In this document: one piece after another, positions 37,801 through 49,800 of the stretch | Layout of the letters: the number at the start of each line of letters is the position of its first letter | Numbering within the stretch: the first letter of the stretch is position 1 | Source of the DNA: Halichondria panicea | Lineage: Eukaryota; Porifera; Demospongiae; Suberitida; Halichondriidae | Length of the DNA: 64,000 nt | Direction: 5' to 3' | Assembly (NCBI RefSeq): GCF_963675165.1 | Contig: NC_087378.1 | Coordinates: 6,629,205 to 6,693,204 of the forward strand | Program-made: the position numbers and the translations under genes | Notes under the pieces: model-generated | What the model was told of the DNA's origin: nothing | What the model saw: only the letters and a program-made list of their open reading frames with translations | Database searches by the model: none

Positions 37801-40800
37801 TTGTCTCCTCCACCTGGCTCGTTAACATCTTGTCGTTTGTAACCTTCTCCTTACGATACGCCTCAAACTGTTCCTTGAGCTCTTTGAGCTCATTGGTCAG
37901 CTCCTGGTTGCCATGCCCACCATCCCCTCGGCTTTCCTCGCGCACACTGTCAGTGGGAAGGGGTGTGGCTTGTGCCAGGAGGGTGCGGTACATGTCACGT
38001 TGTTGAACGATAGATTTGACCATTTCTGTCTGCCTCTCCCTCGACAGCTGCAACTCACGCACCTCTTCCAGAGCCTCGTCCAGCTGGGACCTAAGAGCCT
38101 GTGGTCATGTGTGTGTGTGTGTGTGTGTGTGTGTGTATGTGTGGTGGGAGGAGGAGGGCTATTAGTAGAGCACAAACATGTACACAGAATACATTTTCAT
38201 TTTCTTGTGGTATGACCAGCAAACATCTTGAATACATCAACTCTACACCTCACAGCCCCACTATCCTCACACCATCACTAGCCTCACACCCTCACTAGCC
38301 TCACATCCTCACTATCCTCACACCCCCGTCTCACCTGTGTCCGCTGGTCGAGGGTCTCCTTCTCCTGTTGTTCGTTCTGTTCCCCCAGTTCCCGTACCAC
38401 ACTCAGCAGTCGCTGGTTCTGCTCTTGTAGCTCCTCGATGGACCTGAACTCTACGAGCTGGCGGGTGATCATCTGGGAGGAGCTCGATATGTCACTACTG
38501 CTCACATCCATGTGATAGTCATGTGACACCATACTAGAACTAGCCACACCCCCACGGGCCTCCTCACACTCCTTGAGCAAGATCTGTATTTACAGTTAGA
38601 CAAAATAAATGTTAGTGTCTACAGAGTGGTACTTAATAATCTTTATCAACATTTTATACTGCTCCAAGTAATCCCAAAACACATTTTTAAATGGAACTAC
38701 ACCGCAGTTTGAGACCAGATAACCAAACCACACCCTCCTCACCTTAACCTGGCGTCCCAGGTCAGTGGTGAGTGCTTTGAGTCGCTCCTTCTCGCGCAGT
38801 GTCCCCCGGTATTGTCTCACTGAGTCATCCCCCTCTAGCCTCAGGCTCTCACACTCGTCCATTAGGGCGTCCAGTTTCTGGTTGAGACTAGAGACGGTGT
38901 GGACAGAGCTGTCGTAGTCTCGCCGCAACTTCTGGAGGGCGGGTGTCTTCTCTGAGAGCTCCTGCACAATCTGATCGATGTAGTTGTTGAGTCTCAGGTT
39001 CTCCTGCCGAGCTTGCTCCAACTCCTCACACACCTATTGGAATGGAGGGGGGTTAGTGCATTGATTAATAAGTTCGTCTGTAGCACCTACATGTACTTGT
39101 ATTGCTATGATAACGAACAGTACTCAAGAAAAAGCTCAATCCCTCCCCTCCCCCGTATTCAGACATAGACCTAAGCAACCATAAATAGATAGGTGGCCAC
39201 ATCAAAGCAATTTGTATACAGGGCTAGAAAAGAAGTACTCAAAAGCCTTTCACTGAGACTACAATGTACTTCCTAGACTAACCTGAATGTGCTCAGAGTA
39301 GATCTGTGTGAGCGACTTGCCAGACTTGAGCAGGGCACTTGCTTTAGCAGCAGCTGGCGAGAGAGAGAGCACCTCTTGGTCCGACAGAGATCCCCTATAC
39401 TGACGCATAGAGGTTAAGAGGTCATTTGCACGAGAGAGCTCCTGTTTCTTAGAGGCCAGACTTGTAGAGAGGTCCCGTTCCACTCTCTCACCCCTGCAGG
39501 GGGAAACATATACCATAAAGTACATTGAAGCCTCCAAATAAAGAACTTTGGGAGCAGCTATTTTGTCCTTATAGAGAGGCTTTCCTTTGGGGGTAGTAGT
39601 TAAAAAACACTATATAAATTGGTGCCATGGACAGTGCCTTTATGAAAAGTAGCCCTTTGGTGGGAGGATGCATTGTAAGTACAGTCGTGTGAAGTAGCTC
39701 GGCTACCTTTGTCTGCCTGTAACTACAGCCTAAAGTCAAATTGTACGTATTAATGATAATGTTCTTACTTGTCGAACTCAACGTCCAGCTGAGCCTGCAG
39801 CTGTTCCTTCTCCTCAGAGAGTGTTTCCAATAGCGACTGCAACCTCTCCACTCCAGAGAGCAGCTCACTCACTCGACTCTCAGCATCAACACTGGCGCTC
39901 TTGTATAGCTCCGTCAGTTTAGCCTGAGGGGGATTCACGTAAGTGAAGTGATGTCATGCTCTATCTTAACAAGAATACATTTCACAATCCCACAAAATAA
40001 TTTCATGCTCAACAAAACTGCAATAAATTCGTCACGAAACCCTCATAATCAAAATACTTATTAGACCAACTCCCTTAACCAAAATATTTGTCTACACGTG
40101 ATATTGTATAACAAAATTGCTCAAACAACACATTACAAGCTACAAAAATGTTCATAGTTCAGGCAAAGTAATCAGCTAGTGTTCTCATTCCATAAGAGAT
40201 TTGACCAAAGCCAGGAGCAAATTCTTTCGCTTGATTGAAAAATGAAAGTTGAATTTGAGCTTAAAATCAGGATAATTATAAAAGAGTTGGGCATTCATTT
40301 GCCAGGCATCGCCGACCTTCTTTGCATCGAGAATTTTAGGATACAGAGGGGCATTTTTATACTTATTATAATTTGCTTTAAACCATATGCGTAACTCATC
40401 AACATTCTCCTCGGAGAGCGTGTACAAGTTCGGGAGTCCAACATTAAGCAATACTGCATGTATATGACTTTATTAGATTCGGTCTAGCTCCAGCATCAGT
40501 TTTAATAAACTCGTCTTTGATGTTAGGTCTATTATCAATGGCTTTCTTGTAATCTTGCCAGCTCATATCGATAGCGCGTTTCACATCTTTCAGACTAAGC
40601 CTGAAGTTATTGGCCCGCCCGGTGGCAAGACACATGGCTCCAACCAGCAGTAACAGTAGACCACCCTTCATTCTCGAGCTCAGGCCAATTCAATAGTTTT
40701 GAAGTTGCAGTATTTCAGCAGTACGGTTGAGATTTGCTTGTTACACTGGTAAAAACCTGCATTCTTATAGTGCTCATCTCTGTGAACACTGAAAACTGTT

Positions 40801-46800: not shown

Positions 46801-49800
46801 GTTTTGAAACTCGAACAAAGAGTATGGTTTTGCACTACCCAGCTGATTGCCAGAATTGGTGAATTCTTTGAAACAATCAAAAGCTGCTGTCACCACCTGG
46901 ATAAAATCTGGTGGACGTAAAATGATGTTAGGGGCTGGTTTGCGGTACTGATCAGAGATAATAGGAAAGCTAAAGTCGAACTCATGGAGTTTATTGAAGG
47001 GAGTGCTCTGAGGCCACTTGAGGGAAACTCTCAAGCGAGTGCCCGTCGGTTGGGAAACCTCTATTTCCTTGACCAAAAGTAAAATTTCCTTAGCTGTTTC
47101 CTGAAACACCCCCTTCAGATCTGCGACTTGAGATTGCTCGACGACGAATTCATCTGGCACGATCACTTTGTAGAGCTTCAGTACATCAATTAGTATGTAG
47201 TCCAGCTTCATCAGTTTGCCTTGTATTATGTGGCGTGTGAAAGTCGATGGCACATCGGGGGCTGGTATGTTACCACGTTCTGAGAACTTCTTGTACCTGT
47301 TGAGAGCCGTTTTAAACAGCTCCGAAATCTCGTCATTTGTGAAGATGGTCTGCTCAGCTAGTGTGAAGCTGACACACAGCACAACTAATAGTAGAGTACG
47401 AACAACCATTTCTTTGCCTTCTCACTTCTACTTTTGAAGCTGTCTCTATAGGTCTACGTGGTGCTCAGCTATATACACGATATAAGGCTACACAGCCACA
47501 CACTTTTATGTGCACGGAACAAGTAGAATTTCCTTGGCATTGAGTTAGTAATTAAGGGCATTGTTCACAAACTATACCTACTTCCATACTGAAGCAACAC
47601 ACACACTCAATAGAGAACTATAGCAGCAGAAACAGATCAACAAACATTCAGCTACTGCTAGTCTATCTATATAGTGCAGCCGATAAATATTTAACCAACT
47701 GCATGTTTTAAGGTGAATGAAATGTTTAGAGACAACAGATATCTAGCTTAGCACACTATCAAAGTACACGATGAAATAAGTTTTTTTATGAGATTCATAA
47801 TGCGTATTATTACCAGCGCAGACATAATTTACCATTACTACTAAAAATTAGATATTGTAGTGTAGTGCAGCATTTGCAGACACACATGGATGCGGTGAGG
47901 CATCAGCAAAAGCTAATAATCAACAATTCACCATGTTCCTTTAATCCACAACAAAATGCATGAGGTTACAGTTAAGTTTACACACGTTAGGTTAATCGCT
48001 ATAATTATTATTACACAAAAATTAATGCTATGACAGTATGATATCATCGTTGTTAGAAGAGCACTAAGTATATAGCTACTCTATTAAACTGGCTTAACAT
48101 ATTCAGAATGTTCATAGAAGTCGACTCCTTCTTAATCGGGATGAACAGACTAAAGTTGGCGCCACCAATCCTCTGCAGGAACATGTTCAGTTTGTCATCT
48201 TTGGATGTCAACACACGATCTCCAGCCTGATGTTCTGACTAGCCGCGGCTTGAAAATACGTCATCATATCTGCTGAGAGAGAGTCTGGGAGGACGTACTC
48301 TGTTCTCACCTCACACACAAAACACCCACACACTTGAGGAGAACGTCTGATTTACCCGGGTCTGGTTTACTCTCGATGAACGCTTCGTATTTCTTCCAAG
48401 CGATATCGACTATTGACTCGGCAAAATCCTTGGTCAGAAGTGTTTCTCCTCTTGCCCCCAGAACAGATATAGCTACCAGAAGGATCAAACAGTTAGCATT
48501 CATTGCAAAAGAGCTAATCAACTTTTCGGTGCATCTAAACGCAAGCTCAAATCTAGACCACCTGGCATGGGTTTATTTATATACCTACCGAGAGCTATAT
48601 ACATGCTTCACACACATACAGGTAAGACTTCCGTTTAGAACATTTTCAAGCACTTACACTAGTGTAGCTTATACATACCATTGTACAATGTCCTATTTGA
48701 AACACCAACGTTTACACTATCCATACAACAACAACTATCAAACAATGAGTTCATAAATTTTAATATCCTTTCAATGAATCACACATTAAAAACATACAAT
48801 GTAGCTATTACAAATCATCGCTCGATACAATAGCTATCATGAGTATAGGATGCCGTATGACTTGAATGATCCCTAAAAAGCTGAATGCTAACCAGTGCCG
48901 GCCACTCAGTCTGTATAGGTATAAGGGGTACTCTCTGGGGAGGGGGGGTAGCATCGAGTCATGCACTATTTATCAGTAAGGGGGTCCTCTCCGGGGGGTG
49001 GGGGGGGTAAGCATCGAGTCATGCACTGTTTATCAGTAGGGGGTTCCTCTCCAGGGGGGTGGGGGGGGGGGTAAGCATCGAGTCATGCACTGTTTATCTA
49101 TCTATACTGTCATACATGCATGTACATAACACAAAGAGAGCAAATGTTTTTAGGACCATACCATACAGATTCTAATACTGCAACTCTATGTGACACTTGG
49201 GTAATTCACCTTTACAACATAATTATTGAACACATGTATACATGTAGTCTCACAAAACAGAAATTAAATTCTTATTTTAGTGTCGGCCTTATTTAGAATC
49301 TATACGATAGGCACTTCAATAAACATACAGTTTAATGCACGCAGTAGTTAGTACACCGTCGATCTTTAAATTTTCAGTAGCATATTATATTTTTCATATG
49401 CAAGCGGTTTAACAAGACACATCCATTCATAAAAGCCGACACTGTCAATTAAAGTCATACGTAGTACTCAAGCACTTATAAAGATACCAATGTACCTGTT
49501 GTGCCAGCTCTCTCCTGAGGTGCTCCTCTAGAGTGGCTGTCTCCTCTTTCTCTACCCTGCTCTTGTTCAGTGACTCCTCGGTCTGACTCGCTAGACGAGA
49601 GTACGCTTCACGTTGGTCTTCCAGCAGGGAGGAGAGATGCTTCACCTAGTGCAATAAGACTGGGTAACACAGCATTCGATATCTAAGGATGTATATACAT
49701 CATGTATGCACAATATAACCATGAGAACAAAAGATCTATGACACCATAAACAAGACATTTGTATCTGAGGCATCCTTAGAATGTCTATGACTATATCTAA

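Follow-up and report, generated by a model that had tools for sequence, protein, structure and literature searches.

A tandem array of intronless genes for putative secreted proteins nested in one intron of TPR in the sponge Halichondria panicea

Introduction

How does a group of genes arise and persist within a single intron of a housekeeping gene, on the strand of its host, and how could its members be transcribed there? The question is raised by a stretch of 64,000 nucleotides of the Halichondria panicea genome (131 Mb in 39 contigs), referred to here as the window, in which an initial annotation had placed five members of one family of secreted two-domain proteins inside an intron of the nuclear-pore gene TPR. 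With a probability of roughly 0.7 for the proposal as a whole, we interpret the locus as a small birth-and-death cluster of intronless secreted-protein genes in one TPR intron, which would have grown by tandem copying, would exchange sequence at the gene ends by conversion and would be transcribed independently within its host.

Results and discussion

The host gene and its intron

39769..39923, minus strand: TPR exon directly downstream of the intron; begins [10 protein letters not shown]
39924..49495, minus strand: TPR host intron, 9,572 bases, GT-AG, placed by its splice sites, the open joined frame and TPR domains on either side
49496..49645, minus strand: TPR exon directly upstream of the intron, placed by profile scan and open joined frame

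A single TPR intron of about 9.6 kb had been named as the site of the array, and this is confirmed. The five TPR exons joined across the 9,572 bases form a frame without a stop codon, and there are no N letters in the 64-kb window. The four introns around it measure 170, 248, 275 and 249 bases. By its domain profiles the host gene is TPR: the exons before the intron match PF25481 (Nucleoprot-TPR) with 57.7 bits against a cut-off of 27. Support from the exons after it is weaker. The two best matches to PF07926 (TPR_MLP1_2) among 14 listed for the genome fall past the intron at window positions 34849-35508 and align with neighbouring halves of the profile; at 31.8 and 27.8 bits each stays below the cut-off of 36, and matches below the cut-off were also returned by eight of 14 prokaryote control genomes. 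The three exons directly after the intron, taken alone, gave weak coiled-coil matches, none above cut-off (best 25 of 42), and a search of PDB sequences with the TPR exons gave no match. We place the array inside TPR because TPR domains lie on both sides and the splice join is open. The order of the exons presumably agrees with that in human TPR.

Three intact two-domain genes and their broken neighbours

40185..40671, minus strand: f4, single-domain relative with broken reading frame, from sequence and profile comparison
40990..41544, no strand assigned: dispersed repeats between f4 and c1, outside the gene family, from genome search
42619-43539, minus strand: c1, intact intronless gene for a two-domain secreted-type protein of 306 aa
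44684-45619, minus strand: c2, intact intronless gene for a two-domain secreted-type protein of 311 aa
about 46047-46268, minus strand: truncated sixth copy, comprising the upstream block and about the first ten codons, from repeat and sequence comparison
46495-47409, minus strand: c3, intact intronless gene for a two-domain secreted-type protein of 304 aa
48053..48503, minus strand: f5, decayed single-domain relative whose start resembles a signal peptide, end uncertain

Whole genes lie within a single intron of a host gene unrelated to them and thus form a nested array. The three intact, intronless reading frames reported earlier were recovered, all on the TPR strand. Identity to c1 is 79-81% for c2 and c3, and the tandem two-domain units are spaced by 2,080 and 1,790 bases. 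Each of the three proteins consists of two homologous domains, D1 and D2, which in c1 share 27% identity (E 5e-11); a D2 query against the whole genome detected the three D1s, with identities of 25-29% and E values from 3e-6 to 0.002. The D1 copies are far more similar to each other (75-78%) than D1 is to D2 (23-27%), and the domain doubling therefore predates the tandem copying.

The earlier description as two-domain proteins applies to c1-c3 and fails for the two outer members, f4 and f5, which are single-domain and broken. Nor can we maintain that there are five members of one family, as a profile of the intact genes reaches f4 and f5 with E values of 12 and 19. The codon at position 48521, where the array had been said to start, is TTG, and the likely ATG is at 48503. 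A short intron as the cause of the frame break in f4 was weighed by eye and not adopted. The segment between f4 and c1 is made up of two adjoining dispersed-repeat stretches with at least about 40 matches per genome search.

The signal-peptide-like starts claimed for the proteins are supported by N-terminal hydropathy, with maxima of 2.88-2.98 within residues 5-17 in c1-c3, f4 and f5. Those of c1-c3 are strongly hydrophobic (2.95-2.98 at residues 6-17), and these proteins are predicted to be secreted. They are orphans in Pfam, NCBIfam and PDB sequences, and the earlier statement that no known family was recognised stands within these three collections. Pfam and NCBIfam scans yielded nothing above the curated cut-offs, and PDB sequence searches no convincing match. 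A Pfam match to UFC1 (E 0.19), three NCBIfam matches (E 0.04-0.34) and PDB matches to enzymes (best E 0.01 and 0.52) were dismissed as weak and partial; amphipathicity labels of residues proved too noisy to use. A sequence search of the genome found no relatives of c1-c3 outside the array, and none of 16 matches of two short peptide patterns in prokaryote contigs was confirmed as a two-domain relative. On account of the secretion-type start and the fast turnover, the two grounds for assigning such a role, the product would most likely be a soluble secreted protein of a binding or defence type.

Single-domain relatives on two other contigs

L036:1531-2040 and L035:7840-8328, contig C15: single-domain relative loci
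L037 and L038, contig C17: single-domain relative loci, with a start fragment at L037:4689-5042

The genes on C15 and C17 are dispersed, single-domain and of secreted type; one is intact (C15, 170 aa) and three are broken, one on C15 and two on C17. When the window was searched with profiles built from them, the sites of f4 and f5 emerged as the two best places (E 3e-5 and 0.11), which indicates that f4 and f5 have the domain of these genes. Since they also occur on C15 and C17, the single-domain relatives have no fixed link to TPR. A context scan covered 10 ORFs of four regions around them. The C15 cluster has a receptor exon (ANF_receptor, E 4e-11) to one side and, on the opposite strand, an AIDA gene (Aida_C2, E 2e-30) to the other side; it appears to be intergenic, a further receptor exon beyond the cluster being possible; the two C17 ORFs scanned had no Pfam match. 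For comparison with the nested array genes, the same genome offers f4/f5-type single-domain genes that lie outside TPR.

Signs of kinship between these genes and c1-c3 are weak and mixed. The C15/C17 profile aligned with the joint two-domain profile at p 0.025 (reversed control 15.1 vs 16.3), with D2 at p 0.06 and with D1 at p 0.21, and f4 and f5 scored Z values of -0.7 to 1.0 against the two-domain profiles. Two of 40 piece comparisons stood out, uncorrected for their number: the start of f5 against D1 (p 0.001-0.003) and its middle against D1 of c2 (p 0.002). The two-domain profile ranked the C-terminus of a C17 relative first (E 0.03), and further comparisons between two-domain and single-domain genes gave P values of 0.03-0.36. 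It is on the weak kinship of the C15/C17 and two-domain profiles that we base the reading that the two-domain gene perhaps arose by fusion of two single-domain secreted-protein genes.

The occurrence of f4/f5 relatives on two other contigs, along with the dispersed repeats that share the intron, would also suit an array that entered TPR as cargo of a mobile element or virus. However, the intron contains no inverted repeat of at least 40 bases (seed 14), genome copies are few, and the 75 matches of two short signal-peptide-end peptide patterns in viral contigs included no confirmed relative. We regard such an origin as highly improbable.

Selection and mosaic divergence among the copies

Are the intact copies functional genes? 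Length differences between the coding regions of c1-c3 are multiples of three in all 10 pairwise differences (about five events). In the flanks, this holds for 0 of 12 differences upstream and 4 of 19 downstream, counts that are rough because true alignment fails in the more distant upstream sequence and in the downstream flank of c1. Amino-acid differences number 62 between c1 and c2, compared with a neutral mean of 78 (95% range 70-86), and 64 between c1 and c3, compared with 79 (71-87). The pair c2-c3 is indistinguishable from neutral, with 33 differences where 33.9 are expected (28-39). The probability that no stop codon arises through random changes is 0.22 for 47 changes, 0.035 for 106 and 0.019 for 130.

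These data bear on the alternative of non-functional or relaxed relics whose frames are still open by chance in a tolerant intron. Such relics would fit with the broken state of f4, f5, the sixth copy and the three relatives on C15 and C17, with the neutral look of the c2-c3 differences and, at 47 and 106 changes, with the probabilities just given. They would not be expected to confine coding length changes to multiples of three or to keep the amino-acid changes of c1 relative to c2 and c3 below neutral, and all three full-length two-domain copies as well as one single-domain relative on C15 are intact. We consider the relic explanation unlikely, and the sequence comparisons make a moderate case for function of c1-c3.

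The birth-and-death reading further includes exchange between copies, for which the distribution of silent changes is informative. With the ends defined as the first 60 and the last approximately 65 codons, synonymous changes in codons for the same residue affect, between c1 and c2, 2 of 120 end codons compared with 18 of 121 middle codons (Fisher p 2e-4) and, between c1 and c3, 3 of 123 compared with 17 of 117 (p 7e-4). For c2-c3 the mosaic is not significant (p 0.31). Compared with shuffles, the longest identical runs of the three pairs gave p 0.001, 0.0001 and 0.06. Just upstream of the coding region, c1 and c3 are 93-98% identical per 60 bases, similar to the coding ends, and c2 has one stretch there at 62-66%; past the stop codon, the likeness of c1 to the other copies falls to 35-60% per 60 bases. 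At both ends the copies thus appear homogenised, and their middle parts appear to have diverged. The mosaic would be explained most simply by gene conversion acting on the ends, with the middle left to diverge.

Transcription of the nested genes

42569..42574, minus strand: AATAAA, 45 bases past the c1 stop codon
43540..43766, minus strand: upstream block of c1, with TATAAAA starting 101 bases before the ATG

The upstream block of c1 recurs before c3 (96% identity), before c2 (86%) and, in part, at the sixth copy (76%), and all five of its matches in the genome are inside the array. We suggest that the two-domain gene was copied in tandem along with about 200 bases upstream. TATA-like words occur in c2 at -91 and -66, in c3 at -101 (CATAAAA) and in f5 near -80, and two of the six copies, f4 and the sixth, have none within 200 bases upstream. 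Such words are commonplace in the intron, with 28 scattered occurrences of TATAWA where 10.8 are expected. On the array strand of the intron, AATAAA was counted nine times (5.6 expected), and none of five poly(A)-like words was found in the 400 bases past c3 and f4. The end of f5 was assumed to be 48097 for the signal-word scan. Taken together, the counts of TATA and poly(A) words are not decisive. A scan for bacterial promoters and terminators was discarded as inapplicable to an animal and remained at chance level (28 vs 27.3 and 5 vs 5.4).

It is conceivable that the array genes lack promoters of their own and that the proteins are made from TPR transcripts, via alternative last exons or released intron RNA. 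The location on the TPR strand and the weakness of the promoter and poly(A) words would be accounted for in this way. On the other hand, every one of the intact ORFs comes with an ATG, a signal-peptide-like start and a stop codon of its own, an upstream block accompanies each two-domain copy, and a simple pattern detects just three acceptor-like sites on the array strand of the intron, one of which is TPR's own. Production from TPR transcripts is in our view rather improbable. Independent transcription is the likeliest mechanism: each copy would most likely be served by a separate Pol II promoter and poly(A) site, while the TPR transcript would read through and the whole array would be removed as an intron. 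The internal poly(A) signals would be ignored by the host transcript because they lie behind the 5' splice site of TPR.

A more far-reaching version of these ideas, which we offer as speculation with little chance of being right in its entirety, is that the proteins represent a new secreted fold, single elsewhere and doubled in the TPR intron, with promoter, signal peptide and C-terminus kept alike by conversion, a diversifying mature centre and expression coupled to TPR transcription.

Precedents for nested genes

Genes in introns, including those on the same strand, are already known. The initial annotation saw in this arrangement a new question about promoters and ends. That view is not sustained by the excerpts consulted of PMC3890989, according to which same-strand nesting is common (727 of 1,651 nested genes in Drosophila point in the direction of the host) and host read-through has a precedent: in the pairs of genes and the reporters examined in Drosophila, poly(A) signals within the host intron went unused by the host transcript while the host 5' splice site was present. 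It is also stated, in the portion consulted of PMC3192792, that a nested gene is able to interfere with its host.

The closest likeness we can point to comes from the excerpted text of PMC10835880. In Drosophila, four ng (nested / new glue) genes and Sgs4 are nested together in an intron of dunce, so that, as in the TPR array, several genes for secreted-type proteins share one unrelated host intron. The ng-type genes are short and, like c1-c3, intronless, and related glue genes elsewhere undergo fast copy-number change and gene conversion. Host, animal and protein sequence differ (the proteins of the dunce-intron genes are threonine-rich), and no homology is claimed.

For sponges and ctenophores, the parts consulted of PMC10282587 and PMC8527503 list 3,358 annotated nested genes in Amphimedon, 2,432 in Aphrocallistes and 2,357 in Hormiphora, many of the latter parallel to their host. 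How many are counted varies greatly with the way genes are annotated (Ephydatia 0, Oopsacas 83). Glassin resembles the array genes in being nested and single-exon, and these same parts describe no tandem one-family secreted array in a TPR intron. Given thousands of nested genes in several sponge and ctenophore annotations and the dunce precedent, the arrangement is of a known kind. With three similar units in one intron, the locus is a clean natural setting in which to test the coexistence of several genes with a housekeeping host on the same strand.

Other features of the window

Searches of the window with Rfam (gathering thresholds) and for tRNA genes came back empty. Tandem repeats are present in the TPR region at window positions 36868-37222 (approximately 63 bases) and 48936-49098 (approximately 60 bases). 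Upstream of the TPR exons, a coiled-coil ORF at 51206-51736 on the minus strand, in which 63 bases (21 codons) are repeated internally, may be a 5' exon of TPR or belong to another gene. Further ORFs match a sugar transporter (MFS_2; 14113-14595, minus strand) and an enoyl-CoA hydratase (ECH_1; 16842-17306, plus strand).
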